NCBI RefSeq assembly: GCF_014646055.1 | Contig: NZ_BMMS01000007.1 | Location: 124,001-188,000 of the forward strand | DNA length: 64,000 nucleotides | Origin: Wenjunlia tyrosinilytica | GTDB lineage: Bacteria; Actinomycetota; Actinomycetes; Streptomycetales; Streptomycetaceae | Reading direction: 5' to 3' | Part shown: positions 9,557 through 61,069 of the stretch, piece after piece | Numbering within the stretch: the first letter of the stretch is position 1 | Layout of the letters: each line of letters begins with the position of its first letter | Notes under the pieces: generated by a model | Database searches by the model: none | What the model was told of the DNA's origin: nothing | The model's input: the letters and a program-made list of their open reading frames with translations, nothing else | Program-made: the position numbers and the translations under genes

Positions 9557-10045
9557 TCAGTCCTTGAGCTCGGGGGTGTTGGCGTCCCTCAGGCGGCGCA
9601 TCAGGGCCGATAGGCGCTCGGCGTCCGCCACCCCCAGGGGCTCCAGGAAGTACCGCCGAAGCGCCTCGGCGTGCCGTGCGCGCGCCCGTTCGGCGATGGA
9701 CAGGCCACTGGGGGTCAGTGCCACGTAGGTGACCCTGCGGTCGGTGGCGCACGCCTGCCGCTCGATGAGTCCCGCTTTGACCATGCGGTCCGCGAACTTG
9801 GTGAAACCGCCCGACGTCAGCGACACCTCGTGGGCGAGCCGGGTCATGGTCAGCCGGTGGCCGGGTGTGCGCAGCAGCCGCAGCAGGACCTCGAACCACG
9901 GGCCGGGGACCGTCACATCGACGCCGAGGTCCGTCGCGGTCAGCCGGTTGGTGCGGGTGTACCCCTCGACCGCAAGACCCCACCAGGTGATGACCTCGTC
10001 GTCGGCGATGTCGGCCGGCCGTACTTGCTCCTGCTCGTTGCCCAT
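9557..10045 (-). CDS. MarR-family transcriptional regulator
   Basis: A 162-residue winged-helix regulator. The core shows RLLRTPGHRLTMTRLAHEVS, then the recognition helix and wing (GGFTKFADRMVKAGLIER, ATDRRVTYVALTPSG), a typical MarR layout. It lies 29 bases downstream of the TetR gene on the same strand, so the two are probably co-transcribed. The target is unknown; the convergent SMR exporter is a candidate by proximity only. Confidence 0.88.
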   Translation of the reverse strand: MGNEQEQVRPADIADDEVITWWGLAVEGYTRTNRLTATDLGVDVTVPGPWFEVLLRLLRTPGHRLTMTRLAHEVSLTSGGFTKFADRMVKAGLIERQACATDRRVTYVALTPSGLSIAERARARHAEALRRYFLEPLGVADAERLSALMRRLRDANTPELKD

Positions 10046-10074
10046 GGCAACAACAGTACGGCCAGCGGGCCCTT

Positions 10075-10653
10075 TCACCATCCCGGGGCGAGAAGGTGAC
10101 GCACCAGGGCGGCCACCTGGGCACAGGCGTCCTCCACGGTCCGGCCCGGCGCCACGGCGTAGGAGAGGGTCAGCCGGACGGCGGCCTCGCAGGCCGCGCC
10201 GATCTGCACCAGGCCCAGCTTGGGGTAGCCGTGCTCGATGGCGCCGATCGCCCGCTCGCGCAGGAGCTCGACGAGTTCGCTGGGAGTGGGGCGGGCGCAG
10301 CGGGGCATGAGCGCGGTGCGCTGTTCGTGGCCGCCGATGAGGACCGAGCGCACCAGGGGGTTGGCCTCGGCGGTCAGCAGGGTCCACGAGGCGGCGGCCG
10401 CGAAGGCGCCCCCGGCGTCCGCGCCGGAGCGCTCCGCCCCGGCCAGCGCCCGCTCCACCCCGCCGATGAAGGCCTCCACCTCGCGGCGGGTCAGCGCGCG
10501 GGCGAGCCCGTCCTTGCTGCCGAACTCGTTGTAGAGGGTCTGCCGGGAGACCCTCGCCGCCTCGGCGACCTCGACCATCCGTATGTCGGACCACGGCTGC
10601 CGCCCCAGGGCGGCGAGGGCGGAGTCGAGGAGGGTCTCGCGGGCAGTCGGCAT
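10075..10653 (-). CDS. TetR-family transcriptional regulator
   Basis: A 192-residue protein with a TetR N-terminal helix-turn-helix (ARETLLDSALAALG, VAEAARVSRQTLYNEFGSKD) and a helical ligand-binding C-terminal domain. It is divergent from histidinol phosphatase (gap about 180 bases) and precedes the MarR gene in an apparent two-regulator operon. The ligand is unknown. Confidence 0.9.
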   Translation of the reverse strand: MPTARETLLDSALAALGRQPWSDIRMVEVAEAARVSRQTLYNEFGSKDGLARALTRREVEAFIGGVERALAGAERSGADAGGAFAAAASWTLLTAEANPLVRSVLIGGHEQRTALMPRCARPTPSELVELLRERAIGAIEHGYPKLGLVQIGAACEAAVRLTLSYAVAPGRTVEDACAQVAALVRHLLAPGW

Positions 10654-10833
10654 CGCCGCCTCCGGGGCTCGCGGGCTGGCAGGGCCGCGGCCGAAAATGG
10701 CCTCACCGACCAGATTTGACGTACCACCAGATGCTGTCAAGGGTGCGGTCGCCCTGCCGCCGAACCGGTGTCGGGCGCGCCCACCGCTGCGCCCCGGTGG
10801 CCCTGACCAGAACCGGTCGATACTGTTCGCCTC

Positions 10834-11634
10834 ATGCCGGACTACCACGACGATCTGCGCCTCGCCCATGTGCTGGCGGACGTTGCCGACGCCGCGACGA
10901 TGGAGCGGTTCAAGGCGATCGACCTCAAGGTCGAGACCAAGCCTGACATGACCCCGGTGACGGAGGCCGACCGGGCGGCCGAGGAGCTGGTGCGCGGCGC
11001 CCTCCAGCGCGCCAGGCCGCGCGACGCCGTGCTGGGCGAGGAGTTCGGCAACCAGGGCCAGGGCCCGCGCCGGTGGATCATCGACCCGATCGACGGGACG
11101 AAGAACTACGTGCGGGGCGTGCCGGTGTGGGCCACGTTGATCTCCCTGTTCGTCCAGGGCCCCGGGGGCGACAAGGGGGTGGTGGGGCTGGTGTCGGCCC
11201 CCGCGCTCGGCCGGCGCTGGTGGGCCTCGCTGGGCTCGGGCGCGTACACGGGCCGCAGCCTGTCGTCGGCGACCCGGCTGCATGTCTCCGGGGTGGCCAA
11301 GCTCGGGGACGCCTCGTTCGCCTACTCGTCGCTGTCGGGCTGGGAGGAGCAGGGGCGCCTCGACGGGTTCCTGGACCTGACCAGGGCCTGCTGGCGCACC
11401 CGCGGCTACGGCGACTTCTGGCCGTACATGATGGTCGCGGAGGGCTCGGTGGACATGTGCGCCGAGCCGGAGCTGTCGCTGTGGGACATGGCGGCCCCGT
11501 CGGTCGTGGTGACCGAGGCCGGGGGCCGTTTCACCAGCCTGGAGGGTGAGCCGGGGCCGGGCGGCGGCAATGCCGCGGCCTCGAACGGGCTGCTCCACGA
11601 GGAGCTGCTGGGCTACCTCGGCCGGGGCCGCTGA
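10834..11634 (+). CDS. hisN: Histidinol-phosphate phosphatase (inositol monophosphatase family)
   Basis: A 266-residue IMPase-superfamily Mg-dependent phosphatase. It has the motif GEEFG near 70, [12 protein letters not shown] near 88 (metal-binding DPxDGT) and a C-terminal [15 protein letters not shown] (WDxAA). In S. coelicolor the orthologue at this location is known as the histidinol-phosphate phosphatase of histidine synthesis; family membership alone would also allow other sugar phosphates. It is a single gene with its own promoter region. Confidence 0.88.
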
Positions 11635-11808
11635 GACTCCTGTGAACGGCTGGGGGGGTGGTGAACACCGCCCGCCCGTCGCTCATCACTCGATCTGGGG
11701 ACACCGGGCCTCTTGTTGCCGCCGCCTCCGCATGTGAACATGAGAATTCGAGCCCTTGTGAATTTGTGAAAGGGTTCTCAATTCCCAACCGAGAGGTGGC
11801 TCCAGCCC

Positions 11809-12219
11809 ATGCTCGTCCGTGACGCCATGAGCACTGTGGTTCTCACCATCGGACCCGCCCATACACTGCGACAAGCCGCCCGCCTCATGTCCGCCCGCCG
11901 TATCGGCGCCGCTGTCGTCCTCGACCCGGACACCTGCGGCCTCGGAATACTGACCGAACGTGACGTGCTCATCTCCGTCGGGCACGGCGAGGACCCCGAC
12001 CGGGAGACCGCCGGATCCCACACCACCACCGATGTCGTCTTCGCCGCTCCCGAGTGGACGTTGGAGGAGGCCGCGACCGCCATGGTCCGCGGCGGCTTCC
12101 GGCACCTCGTCGTCCTCGAGGGTGACGCCCCCGTCGGGATCGTCTCGGTCCGCGACATCATCCGCTGCTGGTCCGGGCAGAGCGCCCGGCCGCGCGAAGC
12201 GGCGGCAGTGGCGGGCTGA
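11809..12219 (+). CDS. Tandem CBS-domain protein
   Basis: A 136-residue protein made of two CBS motifs (about 8-62 and 75-128), each with the pattern T(h)xxAAxLMxxRRIGA and xVVLxxDxxxVGIVSVRDI. CBS pairs bind adenosyl nucleotides. With no fused catalytic domain, it probably acts as a small nucleotide-sensing regulator. A strong terminator follows at 12249-12286. Confidence 0.88.
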   Translation: MLVRDAMSTVVLTIGPAHTLRQAARLMSARRIGAAVVLDPDTCGLGILTERDVLISVGHGEDPDRETAGSHTTTDVVFAAPEWTLEEAATAMVRGGFRHLVVLEGDAPVGIVSVRDIIRCWSGQSARPREAAAVAG

Positions 12220-12248
12220 TCCCCGCCCACGCCGCACAGCCACGGCAA

Positions 12249-12286
12249 GAGGCCGGGCTCCCGACGAATCTCGGGAGCCCGGCCTC
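12249..12286 (+). terminator. Hairpin terminator after the CBS gene
   Basis: A 16-bp perfect inverted repeat (GAGGCCGGGCTCCCGA and complement) with a CGAATC loop, 29 bases past the stop codon. Confidence 0.82.
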
Positions 12287-12288
12287 TC

Positions 12289-12398
12289 AGCCGTTGCAGG
12301 TTCAGCCGTTGCGGGCCCAGCCGTTGCCGGTTCGGCCGTTGCCGGTTCAGCCGTTGCCGGTTCGGCCGTTGCCGGTTCGGCCGGTGCCGGCGCTTGCC
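12289..12398. repeat. 15-bp tandem repeat (CCGTTGCCGGTTCGG unit)
   Basis: About seven copies of a CCGTTGC(A/G/C)GGTTC(A/G)G-type unit lie directly after the terminator hairpin. The outer copies are diverged. Confidence 0.75.
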
Positions 12399-12591
12399 CG
12401 GCCGCCGCCCGGGGCGGACCGGACCGGGCGAGGAACCACGTCGCACCGGCGCTACCTGCGCGAGGCGATCGAGCGCGGCGACTCCTCCCCGCGGACCGTG
12501 CAGGTGCGGATCATGCCGGCGAACGAGGCGGCCGCGGTCCCCCGCCGCCTGCCCAACCGAGTCGCATTTAGACATCATCCAAGTCAAGAAG

Positions 12592-12619
12592 AGTTCCAGC
12601 TCCATACTGGATCGGAACT
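12592..12619 (+). promoter_or_regulatory. Candidate autoregulatory operator upstream of the Fur-family gene
   Basis: AGTTCC and GGAACT form an inverted repeat separated by 16 bases, 30 bases before the ATG. If TAGGCT (12636-12641) is the -10 element, the repeat covers the -35 region, as expected for a repressor site. Confidence 0.4.
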
Positions 12620-12648
12620 TGTCCACGAACACTGTTAGGCTGGAACAC

Positions 12649-13062
12649 ATGAGTGACCTGCTGGAACGACTTCGCGAGCGCGGTTGGCGACTCACCGCGC
12701 AGCGGCGAGTCGTGGCCGAGGTCCTCGACGGGGACCACGTCCACTACACGGCCGACGAAGTACACGCCCGGGCGGTGGAACGTCTGCCGGAGATCAGCCG
12801 CGCGACCGTCTACAACACCCTCGGCGAGCTGGTGAGCATCGGTGAGGTCGTGGAAGTGAGCACCGACGGCCGCGCCAAGCGCTACGACCCCAATGCCCAC
12901 CACGCCCACCAGCACCTGATCTGCTCGCGCTGCGGGACCATCCGTGATGTGCACCCCCTGGGCGATCCGCTCTCCGACCTGCCCGACGCCGAGCGCTTCG
13001 GCTTCGTCGTCTCGCAGGTGGAGGTCACATACCGCGGGCTGTGTCCCGGGTGCCACTCCTGA
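12649..13062 (+). CDS. Fur-family metalloregulator (PerR/CatR-like)
   Basis: A 137-residue Fur protein. It has an N-terminal winged helix (LRERGWRLTAQRRVVAEVL, ISRATVYNTLGELV), the metal-binding HHAHQH cluster, and two CxxC zinc motifs (CSRCG and the C-terminal CPGC). The length and the short C-terminus resemble peroxide-sensing Fur proteins such as CatR/PerR; the metal cannot be told from sequence. There is no clear Shine-Dalgarno and the -10-like TAGGCT ends eight bases before the ATG, so the mRNA may be leaderless. Confidence 0.9.
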   Translation: MSDLLERLRERGWRLTAQRRVVAEVLDGDHVHYTADEVHARAVERLPEISRATVYNTLGELVSIGEVVEVSTDGRAKRYDPNAHHAHQHLICSRCGTIRDVHPLGDPLSDLPDAERFGFVVSQVEVTYRGLCPGCHS

Positions 13063-13097
13063 CGCGGCCCGCCGCCCGATGAGGTGCGACCGACCGC

Positions 13098-14624
13098 TCA
13101 GCGGAGCACGAAGGCGAGGTGCCTGCGCACCGGCTCCGGCAGGCCCGCGGCGCCGATCAGGCCGTTGATCCGGTCCAGGTGCTCCGGATCCGGCCGCGAG
13201 TAGATCTGCCTGCGCAGCCACGCCCTCAGATCGGAACGGGCCTCGGCGGCCACGTGCGGGCGGGGATCGGCCGCCAGCTCCAGATCCACCTCCACGCGCT
13301 GCCAGGGCCCTGACGCCCTCAGCAGGCGCAGCGCGGCCCGGTGCACGGGGACCTCCGGGCGGGCCAGCGCCTCGCGGGCGACATCCACGGGCACCGCGGA
13401 CGCCACGGGGACCAGCGCGTCCAGCACCTCACGCGCCACACTGGGTGTCACGTCGCCCAGCAGGGGCACCAGCAACTGCGGCAACTGCTCCTGGGGGGCC
13501 ACCTTCCCCAGCGCCCTGACCGCCGCACGGCGCACCGCCGACGGCCACGCGGGGCCGCTCTCGCCGCTCTCCCAGGGGTGCGGCTCGACCGCCGCCAGCC
13601 GGGCGAGCAGGGGGACGTCGGTGGCGTCGCCGCACTCGCCGAGTCCCGCCGCCAGCCCGGCCACCAAGTTGGGCGCGGTCGCGCCGCCGCAGCGGCGCAA
13701 TTGCTTGCGATAGACATCGACGGGTGGCTCGCCGCGCTTGTAGAGCTTCCAGCGGGCCTGAGCCCGCACCATCCTCGAACGGTCGGCGAGCGGTGCGGTG
13801 AGCCGCGCGGCGGGAACGTCGTCGGGGAGCGCGGCCACGGCGAGCTCCCGGACGGCGGCCGAGCGCGCCCACATCAGCCGGCCGGCCTGGTCCGGGTCGA
13901 TCTCCAGCAGGCGCTCGGCGCACAGATGGCGGCACACCTGGTCGGCGTCGCGCAGCGCGGTGCGGACGAGGTCGCCGCGGACGTACTCGCCGAGCTCCAA
14001 TGCGAGCTCCACGCCGAAGCGGCGGGTACGGGGATCGGCGTCGGCGGCGAGGCGCCGCACCGTTCTGCGCTGGGCGGGGTCGGTGAGCGCGTCGCGGAAC
14101 GTCTCCAGGGCCCCGCCTGCCCGCACCCGGCGGCTCAGCCGCAGCAGCAGCCGGACGGCGGCGACGGCCTCGTCGGGTTCGAGTCGGCCGAGGAGGGCTG
14201 CGACGGCCTGCTCGCGCACGGGAGGCACCCAGTCGACGGTGCGCAGGGCCAGCGCGTAGGCGGTGTGGGGCCCGCGCTCGGCAGAGAGTGCGCGGACGGC
14301 GGACTCGCGGCGTCTGCCGTCCGACTCCATCGACTCCAGGACGAGGCGCAGGGGGTCGAGGATCTGGGGCAGGCGGCTGTCCCATGTGCGGCGCACGGCC
14401 CGGTCGAGCACGACCCAGACGCCGGGCGGGGCCTCGCAGAGCGCGCGCAGACCGGCGGAGGCTTCCTGTCCCTCGGCGGCGCGCAGCGCCTCGACGAGCG
14501 CCTCACCGTCCGCCCCGCGCCCGGAGAGCGCGGCGTCGCACAACTGGCGCCATGCCCGGCCCGGCGCAAGCCCGGGCGGCGCCGCCTTCTTGCGCAACGC
14601 CTTCCCCAGCCGTCCCCGCAGCAC
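13098..14624 (-). CDS. HEAT-repeat protein
   Basis: A 508-residue alpha-solenoid. Most of it consists of about 30-residue helical pairs rich in Ala/Leu/Arg with HEAT-like spacing (for example VREQAVAALLGRLEPDEAVA, RRAAVRALGKVAPQEQLP and SVAREVLDALVPVASAVP). No catalytic motif, signal peptide or membrane segment is visible, so a scaffold or protein-binding role is inferred. The GTG at 14624 is preceded by GGAGG at seven bases. It lies directly downstream of an initiator tRNA gene on the same strand; the hairpin at 14739-14761 separates them. Confidence 0.82.
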   Translation of the reverse strand: MLRGRLGKALRKKAAPPGLAPGRAWRQLCDAALSGRGADGEALVEALRAAEGQEASAGLRALCEAPPGVWVVLDRAVRRTWDSRLPQILDPLRLVLESMESDGRRRESAVRALSAERGPHTAYALALRTVDWVPPVREQAVAALLGRLEPDEAVAAVRLLLRLSRRVRAGGALETFRDALTDPAQRRTVRRLAADADPRTRRFGVELALELGEYVRGDLVRTALRDADQVCRHLCAERLLEIDPDQAGRLMWARSAAVRELAVAALPDDVPAARLTAPLADRSRMVRAQARWKLYKRGEPPVDVYRKQLRRCGGATAPNLVAGLAAGLGECGDATDVPLLARLAAVEPHPWESGESGPAWPSAVRRAAVRALGKVAPQEQLPQLLVPLLGDVTPSVAREVLDALVPVASAVPVDVAREALARPEVPVHRAALRLLRASGPWQRVEVDLELAADPRPHVAAEARSDLRAWLRRQIYSRPDPEHLDRINGLIGAAGLPEPVRRHLAFVLR

Positions 14625-14738
14625 GCGGCCCTCCTCTGCCGAGCCCCCACTGGTGATCAGGATTACCCGCGGTGCGCGGGAAATCGGCGAGAGTTTGCAC
14701 CCCCTTGCCCGAACCTGTACCAGGCCGAAATGCGGAAA

Positions 14739-14761
14739 GCCCGCAGCCATGGGCTGCGGGC
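14739..14761 (-). terminator. Hairpin terminator after the first tRNA-fMet
   Basis: Inverted repeat GCCCGCAGCC with its complement, ten bases beyond the tRNA 3' end, followed on the minus strand by the T-containing tract TTTCCGCATTTCGG. Confidence 0.78.
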
Positions 14762-14770
14762 CTTCCGTCG

Positions 14771-14847
14771 TGGTAGCGGGGACAGGATTTGAACCTGCGA
14801 CCTCTGGGTTATGAGCCCAGCGAGCTACCGAGCTGCTCCACCCCGCG
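14771..14847 (-). tRNA. Initiator tRNA-Met (CAT), copy 1
   Basis: 77 nucleotides with an encoded CCA end. The cloverleaf is complete: acceptor CGCGGGG, anticodon loop CTCATAA flanked by the three G:C pairs that mark initiator tRNAs, and T-loop GGTTCAAATCC. Position 1 (C) cannot pair with position 72 (T in the gene), again typical of tRNA-fMet, where an unpaired 1:72 end permits formylation. The sequence matches the second copy at 17149-17225. Confidence 0.96.
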
Positions 14848-15018
14848 TCGATGAACCAAACCCTACGTGAGCCCCACCCACCAGCGCAAATCCGTTCCCC
14901 TGGGGGCGGGGAGGGCCGCTGAGTCCCGGCGGCGCGAGCAACGCGACGGGAACGCGAGTGACGCGATGCCGGTGGGGCGCCCGGGTCGCGGGCGCCCCTT
15001 CTCGAGCGGGTGGTGCCG

Positions 15019-16878
15019 CTAGGCCGTTAACTCCTGGTGGAGGGCGGCCTTCAGACGGGCGGCGCGCTCGGCCACCTCCGCCGGGCCGCATTCCGCGGCC
15101 CTGGCGCACCAGGACTCCGCCTCGGACAGCGCGCCGCGGCGGGCGGCCAGGAGGGCAAGGCGCAGGGCCGCGCGGCCGTGGCCGTCGTCCGCCGCCCGCG
15201 TCCACCACACGGCCGCCTCGGGCTCGCTGCCCTCGCGGGCCAGCAGCAGGCCGAGGTTGAACGCGCCGTTCCGGCTGCCCGCCTCAGCCGCCGTGCGGTA
15301 CCACTTCGCCGCCTCGACCACGTCGCCGTGCTGCGCCAGGCACATGCCGAAGCGCACCTGGGCCCGCCGATGGCCCTTGCGGGCCGCCCGCTCGTACCAC
15401 TCCTCGGCCTCGTCCACGCCCTGCCGCTCCAGGAGCGAGCCCAGACGGAAGGCGGCATCCGCGCAGCCGTTGCCGGCGGCGCTGCGGAAGTGCCGCTCCG
15501 CCGCGGGCAGGTCCCCGTCCCGCTGGAGCGCGATACCCACCTGGAGCGCCGCCTCGGCGTGCCCCGCGGCGGCCGCGCGCTCGTACCACTGCCGGGCCGT
15601 GCGCTCGTCGCCTCGGCCCACGTGGAGGATGCCGAGGTTGAACGCCGCGTCGACGCTGCCCGCCTCGGCGGCCTTGGAGAACCACGGCTCCGCGCCCGCG
15701 GTGTCACCGCGCTGGAGCAGCAGCACGGCCAGCGCGTTGCTCGCCTCCCGGTGGCCCGTGTAGGCGGCCCGGCGGTACCACTGCTCGGCCTGCGCCGTAC
15801 GGCCCGAGGCCGAGCACAGCAGCCCGAGGTTGAAGGCGCCGTTGTGGTCGCCCGCCTCCAGCGCGATGCGGTACCACCGCTCGGCCTGCTCGGTCTCCCC
15901 GGCCTGCGCGTGCGTGGCACCGAGCGCGTTCGCCGCGTGGCCGTCCCCGTTCAGCGCGGAGCGCCGCCACCACTCGGCGGCCTCCTCCACCTTGCCCTCG
16001 TCGCGCAGGAGGAAGCCCAGGGCGCACGCCGCGCGCGCCTCGCCCTCGCGGGCTGCCTGGAGGTACCACCTCGCGGCCTCCCTGCGCTCTCCCCGCTCCT
16101 CCAGGAGGGTGCCCAGGCGCAGCGCGGCCCTGCGGTGCCCGCGGGCCGCCGCCTGCCGGTACCAGGTCTCGGCCTGCGCGTTCTCGTTGCGCTCGGCGTG
16201 GATACGGGCGATGCGGTAGGCCGCCTCGCGGTGGCCGTGCTCGGCCGCCGCACGGAACCAGCGCTCGGCACCGACGTCACGACGGTGCTCCAGCAGGTCC
16301 GCGAGGGCGTAGGCGCCGAGGGTGTGGCCCTGCTCGGCGGACTGCCGCAGCCAGTACTCGGCGCCCGGCTCGTCCCCGCGCTCACGCAGGTGCCGGCCGA
16401 GGGAGTGCGCGGCGGCGGCGCTGCCCGCGACCGCGGCGATGCGCCACCACGCGGCCGCCTCGTCGGCGTAGCCGCGCTGGTGGAGCAGGACTCCGAGGTT
16501 GTTCGCGGCGGCTCGCTCACCGGCCGCCGTCGCGCTGCGCAGGCACGGCTCCGCCGCCTCCAGGTCGCCGCGGCGCAGCAGCATCGCGCCGAGGACGCTC
16601 TCGGCCGCGCTGTCCCCGGCGTCCGCGGCACGCCGGTAGCGCGCCTCCAACTCCGCCTCCTCGCGGACGGCGAGGACGTCCTCCAGCGGTGCGGGGTCGA
16701 GGATCTGCTCGGTCGAGGGCAGCAGGCTGTCGCCCGAGTGCCGGGGGGCCGGGAAGAGTTCCGCGGCCTCGGGCAGCTCGCGCAGGGCATCGCCGCCCAT
16801 CGGCAGCGTGGGCGTCGTCTCCGCTTGTGAAATCCGACGTTTGTTCAAAACCTTCGCACTGTCCCCCATAGAGTCCAT
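15019..16878 (-). CDS. Sel1/TPR-repeat protein
   Basis: A 619-residue protein. After a 90-residue N-terminal region it is almost entirely Sel1-like repeats of about 35 residues (consensus GHxxAAxxLGxLLxERGxxxEAExWYRxAAEAG), roughly fourteen copies. Sel1 repeats form superhelical protein-interaction surfaces. No signal peptide or catalytic domain is visible. The first ATG at 16878 is used; ATG at 16869 is an alternative. The gene sits between the two initiator tRNA genes on the same strand. Confidence 0.86.
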   Translation of the reverse strand: MDSMGDSAKVLNKRRISQAETTPTLPMGGDALRELPEAAELFPAPRHSGDSLLPSTEQILDPAPLEDVLAVREEAELEARYRRAADAGDSAAESVLGAMLLRRGDLEAAEPCLRSATAAGERAAANNLGVLLHQRGYADEAAAWWRIAAVAGSAAAAHSLGRHLRERGDEPGAEYWLRQSAEQGHTLGAYALADLLEHRRDVGAERWFRAAAEHGHREAAYRIARIHAERNENAQAETWYRQAAARGHRRAALRLGTLLEERGERREAARWYLQAAREGEARAACALGFLLRDEGKVEEAAEWWRRSALNGDGHAANALGATHAQAGETEQAERWYRIALEAGDHNGAFNLGLLCSASGRTAQAEQWYRRAAYTGHREASNALAVLLLQRGDTAGAEPWFSKAAEAGSVDAAFNLGILHVGRGDERTARQWYERAAAAGHAEAALQVGIALQRDGDLPAAERHFRSAAGNGCADAAFRLGSLLERQGVDEAEEWYERAARKGHRRAQVRFGMCLAQHGDVVEAAKWYRTAAEAGSRNGAFNLGLLLAREGSEPEAAVWWTRAADDGHGRAALRLALLAARRGALSEAESWCARAAECGPAEVAERAARLKAALHQELTA

Positions 16879-54639: not shown

Positions 54640-55818
54640 CTAGTAGACCGGCTTCTCGGGCTCGATCTGGTTCACCCAGCCGATCACACCGCCACCGACG
54701 TGGACGGCGTCGGAGAAGCCCGCGGACTTCAGGACGGCGAGTACCTCGGCGGAGCGCACACCCGTCTTGCAGTGCAGGACGATCTTCTTGTCCTGCGGCA
54801 GGCCCTGCAGGGCGGTGCCCATGAGGAACTCGTTCTTCGGGACGAGCCGCGCGCCCGGGATGCTGACGATCTCGTACTCGTTGGGCTCGCGGACGTCGAT
54901 GACGTCGATGTTCTCTCCCGCGTCCATCCACTCCTTGAGCTGCTTGGGAGTGATGGTGGACTCGCGAGCGGCCTCCTGGGCCTCCTCCGACACGACACCG
55001 CAGAAGGCCTCGTAGTCGATGAGCTCGGTGACCGTGGGGTTCTTGCCGCAGACCGCGCACTCGGGGTCCTTGCGGACCTTGACCTGGCGGTAGGTCATCT
55101 CGAGGGCGTCGTAGATCATCAGACGGCCGACGAGGGGCTCACCGGTGCCGGTGAGGACCTTGATGGCCTCGGTGACCTGGATCGACCCGATCGACGCGCA
55201 CAGGACGCCGAGCACACCGCCCTCGGCGCAGGAGGGGACCATGCCCGGGGGCGGGGGCTCCGGGTACAGGCAGCGGTAGCAGGGACCGTGCTCGGACCAG
55301 AAGACCGACGCCTGGCCGTCGAAGCGGTAGATCGAACCCCACACGTACGGCTTGTTCAGCAGAACGCAGGCGTCGTTGACCAGGTAGCGGGTGGCGAAGT
55401 TGTCCGTGCCGTCCACGATCAGGTCGTACTGGGAGAAGATCTCCATGACGTTGTCGGCCTCGAGGCGCTCCTCGTGGAGGACGACGTTCACGTAGGGGTT
55501 GATCCCGAGAACGGAGTCGCGGGCCGACTCGGCCTTCGAGCGGCCGATGTCCGCCTGGCTGTGGATGATCTGGCGCTGCAGGTTCGACTCGTCGACCTCG
55601 TCGAACTCCACGATGCCGAGGGTGCCGACGCCGGCCGCGGCCAGGTACATCAACGCGGGCGATCCGAGGCCGCCGGCGCCCACACACAGCACCTTGGCGT
55701 TCTTCAGGCGCTTCTGCCCGTCCATCCCCACATCGGGGATGATGAGGTGGCGGGAGTACCTGCGGACCTCGTCGACAGTGAGCTCTGCAGCAGGCTCGAC
55801 CAGGGGTGGCAGCGACAC
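54640..55818 (-). CDS. moeZ: Adenylyltransferase/sulfurtransferase MoeZ
   Basis: 392 residues. A ThiF/MoeB E1-like domain (VGAGGLGSPALMYLAAAGVG near 47; DESNLQRQ with the arginine finger at about 82; zinc cysteines C180, C183, C254 and C257) is fused to a C-terminal rhodanese domain with active-site Cys350 (HCKTGVRS). MoeZ activates and thiolates sulfur-carrier proteins for molybdopterin, cysteine and other sulfur metabolites. GTG at 55818 has GGAG six bases upstream and matches the length I recall for the S. coelicolor orthologue. A SigR promoter lies upstream. Confidence 0.95.
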   Translation of the reverse strand: MSLPPLVEPAAELTVDEVRRYSRHLIIPDVGMDGQKRLKNAKVLCVGAGGLGSPALMYLAAAGVGTLGIVEFDEVDESNLQRQIIHSQADIGRSKAESARDSVLGINPYVNVVLHEERLEADNVMEIFSQYDLIVDGTDNFATRYLVNDACVLLNKPYVWGSIYRFDGQASVFWSEHGPCYRCLYPEPPPPGMVPSCAEGGVLGVLCASIGSIQVTEAIKVLTGTGEPLVGRLMIYDALEMTYRQVKVRKDPECAVCGKNPTVTELIDYEAFCGVVSEEAQEAARESTITPKQLKEWMDAGENIDVIDVREPNEYEIVSIPGARLVPKNEFLMGTALQGLPQDKKIVLHCKTGVRSAEVLAVLKSAGFSDAVHVGGGVIGWVNQIEPEKPVY

Positions 55819-55987: not shown

Positions 55988-57010
55988 TCAGCCGGTGCAC
56001 GGCGGCGGGCCGTCACGCACCGACCGCACCTGCTGCGCCCAGTACCCCGGCAGCCCCTCCCACGGGTCCGCGCCTGTCCGGTCGGTCAGGTGGACGGTGG
56101 CCGCCCCCTGCCACCGGGCCAGCCGCAGGGCCGTCTCCATATGGGCTCTCGGGACGCCGTGCACGAGGTGGCAGAACCGCTCCGGCGGGTGGTTCTCGGT
56201 CCAGGCGGCCGGCTGCGCCCACCGGTACCGCGACCAGGGGCCCTCGAACGTCACCAGCTGGTCGGCCGCCTCCAGGTAGCCGGGATCGGGGTACGCCCCA
56301 TGGCCGGAGACGATGTGCGCCCGCCCGGTCAGCGCGCGGAGCCTGGCCACCGTCCTCCGGTACTCCTCCAGCGCGTGCCCGTCCAACGGCGCCCGGTCCA
56401 GGTAGTAGCCGTCCACGCGGTACCACTCCAGATACCGGCCGGCCTCCGGCAGCAGCTCGCCCGCACGGCGGCCGCCGCGGGCGGCGTCGAGCAGGCCGAG
56501 CAGCCGCACCCCCGCCTCACGCAGCCGGGCCGCGGCGTCGAGGAAGAGCGGGTCGGGGCGGACGCCCGGCCCCCGGTGGACATTGATCACGACCCAGTGC
56601 AACGGGGTGCCGGGGCGGGTCAGCTCCGCCCACTCGCCGGGGGCGAAGAGGGGATGGGCGTAGGCGAGCACGCCGAGCCCGAGCCGGTCGAGGGGGACGC
56701 CCGCGCGCCGGGGAACGGGAAGGTGCCTGCGCCCGGTCCGGGAGAGGGCCGGGCCGGCACCCGGCGTGCCGGGGCCGGTGCCGCCGGTGCCGCCGGTGCC
56801 GCTTTCCGGGGCGCCGGGGCCGCCGCCGGCCCTTCCCGGGGCGCCGGGGCCGCCGCCGGCCCTTCCCGGGGCGCCGGGGCCGCCGCTGCTCCTTCCCCGG
56901 GCGCCGGGGGCCGCCGCTGCTCCTTCCCCGGCCGCCGCCGGGGGGCCGTTTCCCGGGGTGCGTCTGCCAGGGGTACCGCCGCTGTCCGGGGTGGGGGTCA
57001 GACTCGGCAT
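55988..57010 (-). CDS. Spherulin-4-like glycoside hydrolase (Pel-like operon, gene 4)
   Basis: 340 residues. After a 105-residue Gly/Pro/Ala/Arg-rich tail with repeated GAPGRAGGGP-type units comes a spherulin-4-like TIM-barrel: LHWVVINVHRGPG, VRLLGLLDAARGGRR, YRVDGYYLDRAP and LVTFEGPW. Family members such as fungal Sph3 (GH135) cut alpha-1,4-N-acetylgalactosamine polymers. The catalytic-type Asp (YYLD) and Glu (TFE) are kept, but the usual DE pair reads DR here. No signal peptide is seen. Its start overlaps the epimerase stop by 13 bases; it is the last gene of the operon. Confidence 0.82.
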   Translation of the reverse strand: MPSLTPTPDSGGTPGRRTPGNGPPAAAGEGAAAAPGARGRSSGGPGAPGRAGGGPGAPGRAGGGPGAPESGTGGTGGTGPGTPGAGPALSRTGRRHLPVPRRAGVPLDRLGLGVLAYAHPLFAPGEWAELTRPGTPLHWVVINVHRGPGVRPDPLFLDAAARLREAGVRLLGLLDAARGGRRAGELLPEAGRYLEWYRVDGYYLDRAPLDGHALEEYRRTVARLRALTGRAHIVSGHGAYPDPGYLEAADQLVTFEGPWSRYRWAQPAAWTENHPPERFCHLVHGVPRAHMETALRLARWQGAATVHLTDRTGADPWEGLPGYWAQQVRSVRDGPPPCTG

Positions 57011-57915
57011 GCCGCCTCCATCCACACATCCGCCAGGGACTCGTCCATCCCGATCCGGGCCCGCCAGCCGAGCCGGTCCCTGGCGGTGCGCACATCGGCC
57101 TGCTGCCACACCCCGCAGCCGTCGAGCGGGCGCCGGTCGCCGTCGGGGCCGAGGTCGCCGGGCTCGTCGAGTTCGAGCAGGCGGCCGGTGAAGCCGGCCG
57201 TCCTGGCCAGCGCCGAGGCCGCGTCCCGCAGGCGGACGGCGTGGCCGGTGCCGATGTTGATCACCCCCTGCGCCGCCGAGAGCGAAGCCGCGTGCACCGC
57301 GCGGGCCACGTCACGGACATCCACGAAGTCCCGCAGCACCGACATGCCGCCGACCTTCACCTCGCCCTCCCCGATCTGCATCGCCCGGCGCAGCGAGTCG
57401 GCGATGCGGCCGAGCGGGGTGCCCAGCGGGGTGCCGGGGCCGATGGGGGTGAAGACCCGCAGGACGACGGCGTCGAGTCCGGAGCCGAGGACGAGTTCGG
57501 TGGCGGTCAGCTTGCTCACTCCGTAGGCGCCATTGGGCCTGGGCAGGGCTTCCTCGCCGGTGGAGGAGCCGACCGGGGACGGCCCGTACTCGGCGGAGGA
57601 GCCGATCTGTACGAGCCTGGCGGTACAGGTGCTGCGGCGGACCGCCTCGCAGACGGTCGCCACGGAGATGGTGTTGGCGCGCACGAGGTCGCGGGCGGTG
57701 CCCACGGTCGTTCCGGCGCAGTTGATCACGACTCCGGGCTGGATCGCGTCCATGAAGCGGGCGAGCGCGCCGGGGCTGCCGGTGGAGAGGTCGAACCGGA
57801 CGTCGGCGCTGTCGCGGCGCCCCAGTGCGGTGAGCTGGACGGCCGGGTCGGCGAGCAGCCGGTCGGTGACGTGCCGGCCGAGGAATCCGTCCGCGCCTAG
57901 GAGAAGAACCCTCAT
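56998..57915 (-). CDS. NAD-dependent sugar epimerase (Pel-like operon, gene 3)
   Basis: 305 residues of extended-SDR fold: LLLGADGFLGRHVTDRLLAD at the N-terminus, a NCAGTTVGTARD loop, catalytic-type Ser (IGSSAEYG) and YxxxK (AYGVSKL), and the RDFVDVRDVARAV segment of GalE-like enzymes. A nucleotide-sugar 4-epimerase or reductase role is likely; UDP-GlcNAc/GalNAc interconversion would suit the operon (inference). Its ATG overlaps the previous stop as ATGA. Confidence 0.88.
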   Translation of the reverse strand: MRVLLLGADGFLGRHVTDRLLADPAVQLTALGRRDSADVRFDLSTGSPGALARFMDAIQPGVVINCAGTTVGTARDLVRANTISVATVCEAVRRSTCTARLVQIGSSAEYGPSPVGSSTGEEALPRPNGAYGVSKLTATELVLGSGLDAVVLRVFTPIGPGTPLGTPLGRIADSLRRAMQIGEGEVKVGGMSVLRDFVDVRDVARAVHAASLSAAQGVINIGTGHAVRLRDAASALARTAGFTGRLLELDEPGDLGPDGDRRPLDGCGVWQQADVRTARDRLGWRARIGMDESLADVWMEAACRV

Positions 57916-59030
57916 GGTGTCGCGTTCCTTTGATCTTGAAGAGTGGGTTGGAGCGGTGAACTGTGGCTCGAGGCACGACCGAGGGCGCGGAAGCCGTGGG
58001 CGAGCAGCGCGAGGGCGGCGGCCGAGCAGGTCAGGCCCTGGACGGCGCCGGGGTGGGTGGCGAGCAGTCCCTCGTGGGGATGGGTGAGGGCGGCGCTCGC
58101 GGCGGCGAGGGCGAGGGCCGCCGCCTGCAGGGCGCAGGCGAGGGCGCAGCCCAGGCCCGCGGCGGCCGGGTGGCCGTGCACGGTGAGCAGGCGGGCGAGG
58201 AAGAACAGCAGCCCCAGGGCGGCCGAGGCGGCGATCCCGGCCGGGTCGGCGCGTCCGGTGGCGAGCAGGTCGGCGGCGGCGAGCAGCCCGAGAAGGCAGG
58301 GCAGGAAGAGCAGGACCGCGCCCGCGACGAGAGGGCGCACGGCGGCGGCGAACTCGCGCAGGCTGGGCGCGGGTGCGAGGCGGGACCGGGCCTTGCGGGC
58401 GAACCACGCCGCGCACCAGGCGGCGGGCAGGACGGCGAAGGCCAGGGCGGTGGTCCGGGCGACGGCGGCCGGGTCGGGATGGAGGGCTTGGAGGTGGGTG
58501 GGCGGCCGACCGGACAGGCCGATGGCCAACGCGCGCTCGCCGAGCAGCGAGAACGCCGCCAGCCAGAGAGTCCACAGCCACTGGCCGGGCGACGAGAGCG
58601 CCGCGCCGCGGTGCAGCGGCCCCCGGCGCAGGCAGAGCAGAAGCGCCGACCCGGCGGCCACGGCGGTGAGGACCCCGGCCACGAGCTCATCGGCCGGGCG
58701 CAGCCGCATGGTCACCGCGCCGGTGAGGCAGCAGAGCCCGGGCAGGAGATGGACGAGTGGCATGACGGCGGTGCGCTGGGGTTCAGCAGCGCGGTGCTCG
58801 TGGCCGGGCGCGCGTTCCCTGGGCACCCGGGCGTAGAGCTCCTCGGCGAGCGAGAACACATCCCGGTGCCGAAAGTCCCAGGCCACCCGGTCGGTGATGC
58901 CGTGGGCCTCGAGCCCGGCCGCGATCTCCAGGGGATGGGTGGCCCGAGCGCACAGCTCACGATGGCGGTGCATGAGAACCCGCACGGGATCGGCGGGGCC
59001 CCGACGGCGAGAAGCCTGAGTCGCGCTCAA
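57912..59030 (-). CDS. Polytopic membrane protein (Pel-like operon, gene 2)
   Basis: About 372 residues: a soluble N-terminus (about 1-85) with HRHRELCARATHPLEIAAGL and DFRHRDVFSLAEELYARVPR, then about nine hydrophobic helices to near the C-terminus. The chosen start is a TTG at 59030 with a perfect GGAGG at seven bases, overlapping the glycosyltransferase TGA as TTGA; ATG at about 58973 is an alternative. It is not recognisably PelG, but its position suggests a polymer-export or membrane partner for the glycosyltransferase. Function unknown. Confidence 0.78.
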   Translation of the reverse strand: MSATQASRRRGPADPVRVLMHRHRELCARATHPLEIAAGLEAHGITDRVAWDFRHRDVFSLAEELYARVPRERAPGHEHRAAEPQRTAVMPLVHLLPGLCCLTGAVTMRLRPADELVAGVLTAVAAGSALLLCLRRGPLHRGAALSSPGQWLWTLWLAAFSLLGERALAIGLSGRPPTHLQALHPDPAAVARTTALAFAVLPAAWCAAWFARKARSRLAPAPSLREFAAAVRPLVAGAVLLFLPCLLGLLAAADLLATGRADPAGIAASAALGLLFFLARLLTVHGHPAAAGLGCALACALQAAALALAAASAALTHPHEGLLATHPGAVQGLTCSAAALALLAHGFRALGRASSHSSPLQPTLQDQRNATP

Positions 59031-61069
59031 GACCGCACCTCCGAAGCCCCGACGCCGAGCGGCCGGCACTCGTCGAGCGCTTCGGGCCGCGGGAGCGTCT
59101 CGCGGTCCACGAGGGCCGGACCGTCCGTGAGGGGGGCCCGCTCCTCGTAGGGCTCGTCCGCGAGGCTCCCGTGGTCCACGAAGTGGGCGCCGTCCGTCCA
59201 GTGCTCGGGCTCCTCGAAGGGCTCGCCGTGCTCCAGGGCCTCGCGGCCTGCGAGCGCCGCACCTTCATCACGGCGCGCACGGCCCTCGACCGGCTCCCGG
59301 TCGGCGTGGTGTACGTGGTCCTGCGACCGGTCGTGCGCCCCGAGAGCGGCGCGGTCCTCCAGGAGGTCGCTGCGGTCCAGGAGTCCGGGCGCCGCCGGAG
59401 CCTCGTGGGTGCCGTCGTCCAGCAGCTCGGCGGGCTCGAACGCCCCGCCCTGCGCCGCGGCTTCGCCGGCCCACCTCGGGGCGTGTCGGTCGGCCTTGCC
59501 CGAGGTCCACCTTCCTGGGACGTGGGGCTGCGCAGGGCGGGTGAAAGGGGACTCGGCACTGGGGGCCGGGCGGGCCGGGCAGTGCGAGACCAGGTCCAGG
59601 TAGATCTCCCGGAACGCCTCGACCGTCCGTTCCACGGCGAACAGTTCCTGGGCCCTCGCTCTCGCCGCAGCTCCCAGCCGGTCCCGGCGTTCCCGGTCCT
59701 CCAGCAGATCGAGGCATGCCGCCGCCAGCGCCTTCGGGTTGCGTGGCGGGACCACCAGGCCGGTGCCGCCGATGACCTCGCGCACGGCGCCCGCGTCGGT
59801 CGACACCGTCGCCCGGCCGCAGAACATCGCCTCGACCAGCGTCCCCGGGAAGCCCTCCACGATGCTGGAGAGCACCACCACGCTCCCGGCCGCGTACGCG
59901 TCGCGGATCGTCGGGACCTCGGGCGTACCGATGTCCTCGAAGGTCACCGGGCTCTCGCCGACGCTGCGGGTGTCCTGCGCCTCGTCGGGGAAGAGCTGCG
60001 CCGCCAGCGTCCGGCAGTGGGCCAGGTAGGGCTCGCTGCCGCGCCGCACCGGGCCGATGATCCGCAGCTTCGCGTGCGGCAGTTGCTGCCGCACCCCGGT
60101 GAAGGCGTGCAGCAGCGCGGCGATGTCCTTGGCGGGTTCCAGGCGGCCGACCCACACCAGCGTCGGGTCCTCGGGCTCGTCCCCGGCCGGGGCCAGCCGG
60201 GAGGCGTCGATGCCCGGGTACACGGTCCGGATGCGGGAACGGTCGGCACCGCATCGTTCCTGCCAACGCCGGTTGTGCGTATTGCCCGGCGTGGTCAGGT
60301 CCGCCCGGCGGTAGATCTCGCCCGCCAGCAGCCGGTGGAACGCCGACAGCAGCGCCCGCACGGGTGCCGCCGTGCCGTGGCCGCGCCCCGCGACATACGC
60401 GTCGCGCAGCTGGATGCCGTACTCGGTGACCAGCAGCGGGGTGCCGAAGAAGCGTTTGGCCACGAGCCCCGGCAGCCCCGCCAGGCCACCCGAGGCGGCA
60501 TGGCACAGATCGGCCCCCGCCAGCCCGTCCTCGTCGTACCAGGGCGCGGACAGCGGCCGGAGCCTGCGCTCCAGCAGTTCCGTGGCCGCTATGAGGTCGC
60601 AGACTCCCGCGGTGGCGACCGCGGCGGGCGCGCCCGCCGCCCCGCACCGCTCCTCCAGCGCCCGCAGTGCCTCCTCGGAGCGCAGGAAGGGTCCCAGGGG
60701 CCCCCGTTCGCGGGCGAGTTCGGCCAGTCCGTACAGCCCCGAGGCGAAACGGTCCGCCACGCGGGACGAACCCTCCACGGCGTCCCCGGCGGTCAGCGCC
60801 CCCAGCAACTCCCGGTAGTGCGCGAGGTGTTCACGCGCCCGTCGGCCTCCCACCGCGGTCCCGCCGTGCGCCGGGCCCCCCAGCGCCTGCGTCCGCACAC
60901 CGCGCACATTCGCGGGCAGCCGGCCCTCGTCCCTCTCACCGGGCCCCCAGCCCAGGGTGTAGACCTCGAAGTCATGGCCGGGCATTGCGCGGACCAGCCG
61001 GTCGCACCAGGCGCCGGGGCCACTGCTCGCATACGGATAGCCACGTTCCGTGATCAGTGTGATGCGCAC
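59027..61069 (-). CDS. PelF-like GT4 glycosyltransferase (Pel-like operon, gene 1)
   Basis: 680 residues. The N-terminus has the PelF/DUF3492 signature (ITLITERGYPYASSGPGAWC), then CHAASGGLAGLPG and LLVTEYGIQLRDAYVAGRG, followed by a GT-B C-lobe (VWVGRLEPAKDIAALLHAF, nucleotide-sugar site with SSIVEGFPGTLVEAMFCGRA). PelF uses UDP-GalNAc/GlcNAc to build the Pel polymer. The family core ends near residue 497; a 180-residue Glu/Asp/His/Ala-rich repetitive tail follows. GTG at 61069 has GAGGGAG upstream. It is the first gene of the operon. Confidence 0.88.
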   Translation of the reverse strand: MRITLITERGYPYASSGPGAWCDRLVRAMPGHDFEVYTLGWGPGERDEGRLPANVRGVRTQALGGPAHGGTAVGGRRAREHLAHYRELLGALTAGDAVEGSSRVADRFASGLYGLAELARERGPLGPFLRSEEALRALEERCGAAGAPAAVATAGVCDLIAATELLERRLRPLSAPWYDEDGLAGADLCHAASGGLAGLPGLVAKRFFGTPLLVTEYGIQLRDAYVAGRGHGTAAPVRALLSAFHRLLAGEIYRRADLTTPGNTHNRRWQERCGADRSRIRTVYPGIDASRLAPAGDEPEDPTLVWVGRLEPAKDIAALLHAFTGVRQQLPHAKLRIIGPVRRGSEPYLAHCRTLAAQLFPDEAQDTRSVGESPVTFEDIGTPEVPTIRDAYAAGSVVVLSSIVEGFPGTLVEAMFCGRATVSTDAGAVREVIGGTGLVVPPRNPKALAAACLDLLEDRERRDRLGAAARARAQELFAVERTVEAFREIYLDLVSHCPARPAPSAESPFTRPAQPHVPGRWTSGKADRHAPRWAGEAAAQGGAFEPAELLDDGTHEAPAAPGLLDRSDLLEDRAALGAHDRSQDHVHHADREPVEGRARRDEGAALAGREALEHGEPFEEPEHWTDGAHFVDHGSLADEPYEERAPLTDGPALVDRETLPRPEALDECRPLGVGASEVRS

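Follow-up and report, generated by a model that had tools for sequence, protein, structure and literature searches.

The four overlapping minus-strand genes at positions 55988 to 61069 of the window (the whole 64,000-nucleotide stretch of Wenjunlia tyrosinilytica DNA that was analysed) are, on balance, probably derived by reduction from a complete actinobacterial CE18/Pel-like cluster that stood beside moeZ in an ancestor of the Streptomycetaceae, the remnant being still a working module. This reading draws on homologies, synteny, gene losses, an intact glycosyltransferase motif and purifying selection, all of them read from sequences. The likeliest role of the genes would be that of a repurposed, non-exporting glycan module in the cytoplasm or at the membrane.

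Operon layout and gene calls

A sequence-only reading of the window had described four minus-strand genes joined by three overlaps, and all of these are present (Table 1). The tight overlaps are not kept elsewhere: the spacing between the membrane protein gene and the SDR gene has a median of 178 bases, with an overlap in 1 of 65 loci. The start codon of gene 2 is uncertain, as is that of gene 4, which has a long Gly/Pro-rich N-terminus. Imperfect direct repeats coding for Gly, Pro and Ala were seen at 56760-56960 of the window; they make up the N-terminus of gene 4 and are probably disordered in the protein.

Table 1. Genes of the operon and the adjoining synteny anchor, with positions in the window.
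Feature	Position	Strand	Remarks
PelF-like GT4 glycosyltransferase (gene 1, GT)	59027..61069	-	GTG start, 680 aa; DUF3492 + GT group 1
Polytopic membrane protein (gene 2, TM)	57912..59030	-	TTG start, 372 aa; TTGA overlap
Extended SDR, RMD-like (gene 3)	56998..57915	-	ATG start, 305 aa; ATGA overlap
Spherulin4/GH135-like TIM-barrel protein (gene 4, SPH)	55988..57010	-	ATG start, 340 aa; 13-base overlap
moeZ-like gene	54640..55818	-	directly downstream; synteny anchor, outside module

Glycosyltransferase and SDR

The gene 1 protein was matched by the Pfam family DUF3492 (PF11997, 109 bits), together with glycosyltransferase group 1, and by the NCBIfam PelF model NF038011 at 118.7 bits (cut-off 100); it is the sole DUF3492 protein in its own genome. 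In the glycosyltransferase tree, a 52-row DUF3492/PelF clade was split (99/99) from 18 GT4 proteins of the same genome, and the window-type clade (100/98) had as its sister the clade of full-cluster sequences from the same family; the two lie within the PelF/DUF3492 group. Profile and tree support the earlier identification of a PelF-like glycosyltransferase, which groups with PelF and apart from other GT4 enzymes rather than with those of the trehalose or glycogen type. The EX7E motif (EGFPGTLVE) and the motif GRLEPAKD are unbroken in the window, and EX7E is unbroken in all 80 of the nearest relatives; the C-terminal tail after about residue 495 is variable and charged. EX7E is degraded in seven glycosyltransferase sequences from other genera, in which the SDR is still intact, and all seven belong to lineages without a detected window-type Spherulin4 gene. 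Since the motif is degraded only in such lineages, this co-retention suggests that the glycosyltransferase and the Spherulin4 protein act together.

Gene 3 encodes a generic extended SDR (126 bits against Pfam Epimerase, PF01370) with both catalytic motifs, GSSAEYG and YGVSK. Its best PDB relative was 2pk3, a GDP-6-deoxy-lyxo-4-hexulose reductase (RMD; E 3.6e-21), and its score against the galE equivalog was 33 bits (cut-off 262). On these scores a GalE-type epimerase was rejected; the protein appears to resemble a GDP-4-keto-6-deoxysugar reductase more closely than GalE, so that of the proposed extended-SDR, PelX-type epimerase the extended SDR stands and the GalE/PelX type does not. Among the four genes it is the most constrained (dN/dS 0.05-0.09 in close Streptomyces pairs). 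For the nucleotidyltransferase of the full cluster described below, the best NCBIfam score was that of the mannose-1-phosphate guanylyltransferase model, below its cut-off. Because the ancestral partners of the SDR would have been a LegB-like dehydratase and this guanylyltransferase-like nucleotidyltransferase, the sugar of the ancestral cluster can fairly be taken to have been a GDP-activated 6-deoxy amino sugar.

Membrane protein

Gene 2 matched no family in Pfam, and likewise nothing in NCBIfam. Its AF2 model has eight transmembrane helices (pLDDT 80.9), preceded by a highly conserved, cytoplasmic N-terminal helical domain (about residues 12-72). Alignment with the full-cluster membrane protein by hhalign gave a probability of 99.9 (E 3.9e-32). 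That relative was modelled with 12 helices (pLDDT 87), and the top 31 PDB hits in a fold search were all MATE, WzxE or MurJ, which have the MOP fold. The full-length relative thus shares the 12-helix, two-lobe fold of the MOP superfamily flippases (PelG, Wzx, MurJ, MATE), whereas gene 2 has eight helices and the fold search with its own model returned no match. The alignment places the missing helices, about four, in the first lobe (N-lobe), the exact helix correspondence being uncertain. To judge from the profile alignment, gene 2 is a shortened relative of the 12-helix MOP-fold exporter of the CE18 cluster; as it is shortened, polymer export by the window locus alone is unlikely on the models, and gene 2 would no longer transport.

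PelG was looked for with PF16933, which gave no match in gene 2 or elsewhere in its own genome and scored 20.5 bits against a distant homologue (L146), below the cut-off of 29; hhalign of the full-length relatives against an 11-sequence PelG profile gave no match. The direct identification of gene 2 as PelG was rejected on these two sequence comparisons. Two actinobacterial loci (L169 and L170, in G255 and G226) carry a triad of PelF, a true PelG and an Agd3-like CE18, the last replacing PelA; PelG sits between the other two, beside PelF as gene 2 is beside the glycosyltransferase.

Spherulin4 protein

Gene 4 was matched by Pfam Spherulin4 (PF12138) at 88.2 bits (cut-off 30.2) and had PDB matches to Sph3 5d6t (E 1.3e-7) and 5c5g, in agreement with its earlier assignment as a spherulin-4/GH135 relative. 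Neither inspection of the sequence nor a simple hydropathy scan over the core showed a signal peptide or membrane helix, which bears out the caveat that the putative hydrolase looks cytoplasmic; the full-cluster copies are without a signal peptide too. Fungal Sph3 is membrane-bound and active at the synthase exit.

In Sph3-type enzymes the nucleophile is an Asp and the acid/base a Glu (PMC12054363), and both residues are present in gene 4 of the window (VDGYYLD, VTFEGPW). The pair is kept in 13 of 14 full-cluster Spherulin4 sequences and in 2 of 38 of the window type, namely the window's own and that of the genome G015 described below; none of the 73 nearest orthologues has it, the acid/base Glu being gone in every one. 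Since purifying selection (dN/dS 0.07-0.44) persists despite the lost catalytic Glu, the protein is probably a binding protein in most species rather than a hydrolase. The window's own copy, having kept both catalytic residues, could be an active hydrolase.

Complete CE18 clusters

The stronger DUF3492 matches of the relatives fall in a second, complete cluster of eight genes, which encode a secreted, Agd3-like CE18 deacetylase (PF25115), a PelF-like glycosyltransferase, a 12-helix MOP-fold exporter (a polytopic protein of 470-550 aa), a LegB-like 4,6-dehydratase, a nucleotidyltransferase, an RMD-like SDR, a Spherulin4 protein and a GH114 lipoprotein. The CE18 gene was present in 77 of 150 genomes of the family, mostly at second loci; a protein search with positive relatives did not find it in the window locus or its own genome, and no gene exclusive to the full cluster was found near any of the 80 nearest glycosyltransferase loci. 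In one genome (G015, L207/L208), the eight genes are all present in the order of the cluster, moeZ lies about 2.5 kb beyond them, and the glycosyltransferase, SDR and Spherulin4 trees each group this genome with the window-type genes. The cluster being complete there and its three genes falling with those of the window type, the sequences are most simply read as the outcome of a full cluster having formerly occupied the moeZ locus and later been reduced. In principle, the G015 locus could be re-assembled rather than ancestral.

A linear plasmid of Streptomyces californicus (L197; NZ_CP070243.1, 5233-14668) carries a complete CE18/PelF/Spherulin4/GH114 cluster, annotated as pelF, spherulation-specific family 4 and endo alpha-1,4 polygalactosaminidase, with the CE18 and membrane proteins as hypothetical. 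At a further locus (L161 in G502, 10000-16100), a tandem pair of DUF3492 glycosyltransferase genes comes after CE18, and genes for a membrane protein and a divergent GH114 come next.

Conservation and synteny

Gene 2 was present in 187 of 200 Streptomycetaceae genomes, the family name of the compared genomes being inferred from named relatives, and was almost missing from the rest of the phylum. Among the first 20 loci read, the glycosyltransferase, membrane protein and SDR genes were in order in 19, the exception (L066) having lost the glycosyltransferase, and the Spherulin4 gene was found in only part of the genera. The nearest glycosyltransferase relatives comprised 80 loci, nearly all named Streptomyces, of which 67 were fully flanked; in 66 of these 67 the order GT-TM-SDR-SPH-moeZ was identical, so the arrangement is not due to chance. 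Far from being rarely found together, the four genes form a single conserved unit, as had been proposed, with the first three in order family-wide. The moeZ gene, 84-96% identical, adjoins all 25 reduced window-type loci examined. Three loci (L066, L167 and L168) have lost the glycosyltransferase gene, or that and the membrane protein gene, and kept the SDR.

The SDR and Spherulin4 genes stand alone beside moeZ at L167 (G010) and L168 (G082), where the glycosyltransferase and membrane protein genes were not found. The only other sampled genome of the window's genus (G001) had no match to the membrane protein gene, Spherulin4, DUF3492 or CE18. A literature search for SCO5179-5182, which we take to be the equivalents of the operon in S. 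coelicolor, gave no papers on these locus tags.

All four genes are under purifying selection. By the Nei-Gojobori method, on few pairs and with saturation possible in the more distant ones, dN/dS of the glycosyltransferase, membrane protein and Spherulin4 genes was clearly below 1 in Streptomyces-like pairs.

Comparison with known systems

The fungal galactosaminogalactan cluster comprises Gtb3, Uge3, Agd3, Sph3 and Ega3, and the ancestral cluster would share its CE18 (Agd3), Spherulin4 (Sph3) and GH114 (Ega3) members. It differs in that the glycosyltransferase here is PelF-like and cytoplasmic and in that the window keeps the Spherulin4 member alone, in cytoplasmic form.

Bacterial CE18 operons, including Spherulin-4 genes in Actinobacteria, are already known from the Agd3 paper (Bamford et al. 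2020; PMC7229062); a description of the reduced form was not found in searchable papers. These agd3 operons share with the window a cytoplasmic glycosyltransferase, a multispanning membrane protein, Spherulin-4 and sugar-nucleotide genes, with four homologues in the same relative order. The window operon differs from them in being without CE18, GH114, the LegB-like dehydratase and the nucleotidyltransferase, in its shortened exporter and in belonging to a type whose Spherulin4 is mostly non-catalytic; the window type is also near-universal at moeZ in the family, whereas agd3 operons are patchy.

The Pel operon, pelABCDEFG or in its Gram-positive form pelDEA-DA-FG (PMC7112168), likewise has a PelF-type glycosyltransferase with an adjoining membrane-protein gene, PelG in that case. 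Unlike it, the window operon has no GalE-type UDP-GalNAc epimerase, and gene 2 is not PelG by Pfam or hhalign. As the sequence-only reading had noted, PelA, PelD, PelE and a recognisable PelG are missing from the four genes by Pfam and NCBIfam; this holds for the operon, and the search was genome-wide for PelG, CE18 and DUF3492.

Alternative explanations

The same reading had proposed a minimal Pel-type system, and its PelF-like glycosyltransferase stands; a simple minimal Pel operon does not, the locus being of a reduced CE18-type, Agd3/galactosaminogalactan-like kind that is complete at moeZ in G015. Should the four genes nevertheless be self-sufficient, they would make and export a GalNAc polymer: UDP-GalNAc would come from the SDR, and the Spherulin4 protein would trim the product. 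The intact motif of the PelF-like enzyme, the Asp/Glu pair in the window's own Spherulin4 protein and the conservation of the operon would all suit this, but the exporter is reduced from 12 to 8 helices, the deacetylase is absent, the SDR is RMD-like rather than GalE-like, and the Spherulin4 protein looks cytoplasmic and is without its acid/base Glu in 73 of the 73 nearest orthologues; we regard such a system as improbable. Assembly of the operon from unrelated glycan genes, its likeness to CE18/Pel clusters being convergent, might be entertained because DUF3492 glycosyltransferases and SDRs are common and gene 2 has no Pfam family. Each of the four genes, however, has a homologue in the CE18 cluster, where the relative order of the four is the same, and a complete intermediate stands at the same locus in G015, which largely refutes this idea; it was rejected and would be very surprising.

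A decaying remnant, in which the SDR alone is useful as a housekeeping sugar-nucleotide enzyme while the other three genes drift away, has a modest chance of being correct. The constraint on the SDR is far above that on the other genes, and the catalytic Glu of the Spherulin4 protein is lost; the degraded EX7E in several genera where the SDR is intact, and the survival of the SDR after loss of the glycosyltransferase or membrane protein gene (L066, L167, L168), fit an SDR-only role. Against such decay stand the unbroken EX7E in 80 of 80 nearest glycosyltransferases, the four-gene order in 66 of 67 loci, dN/dS clearly below 1 for the three supposedly drifting genes in Streptomyces-like pairs and the highly conserved N-terminal domain of the membrane protein.

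Proposed role

Under the preferred reading of a reduced cluster, the operon would have kept a PelF-like polymerase or transferase and an RMD-like SDR for sugar nucleotides, together with a MOP-type membrane protein in shortened form and a Spherulin4-like protein of the cytoplasm, and would have lost the secreted CE18 enzyme, the LegB-like dehydratase, the nucleotidyltransferase, GH114 and about four helices of the exporter N-lobe. The SDR may supply or modify an activated sugar, which the glycosyltransferase would add to an acceptor at the cytoplasmic face; the eight-helix protein would use its conserved N-terminal domain to hold the glycosyltransferase at the membrane, with no export of polymer, and the Spherulin4 protein would bind a short glycan and, in the window organism, perhaps cut it too. 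For most Streptomyces we tentatively suggest, as one possibility, a non-exporting module of an active PelF-like transferase, an eight-helix MOP-derived anchor and a dead GH135 glycan-binding subunit, serving an undescribed intracellular or membrane-linked glycan.

If the reading is correct, a family-wide, selected locus of the main antibiotic producers, undescribed in searchable papers, would be a domesticated polysaccharide cluster. With its dead hydrolase, shortened flippase and intact PelF, it would be a natural case of a synthase-dependent export system that was dismantled and reused, and the complete locus of G015 would, like the second full clusters, offer a ready comparison.
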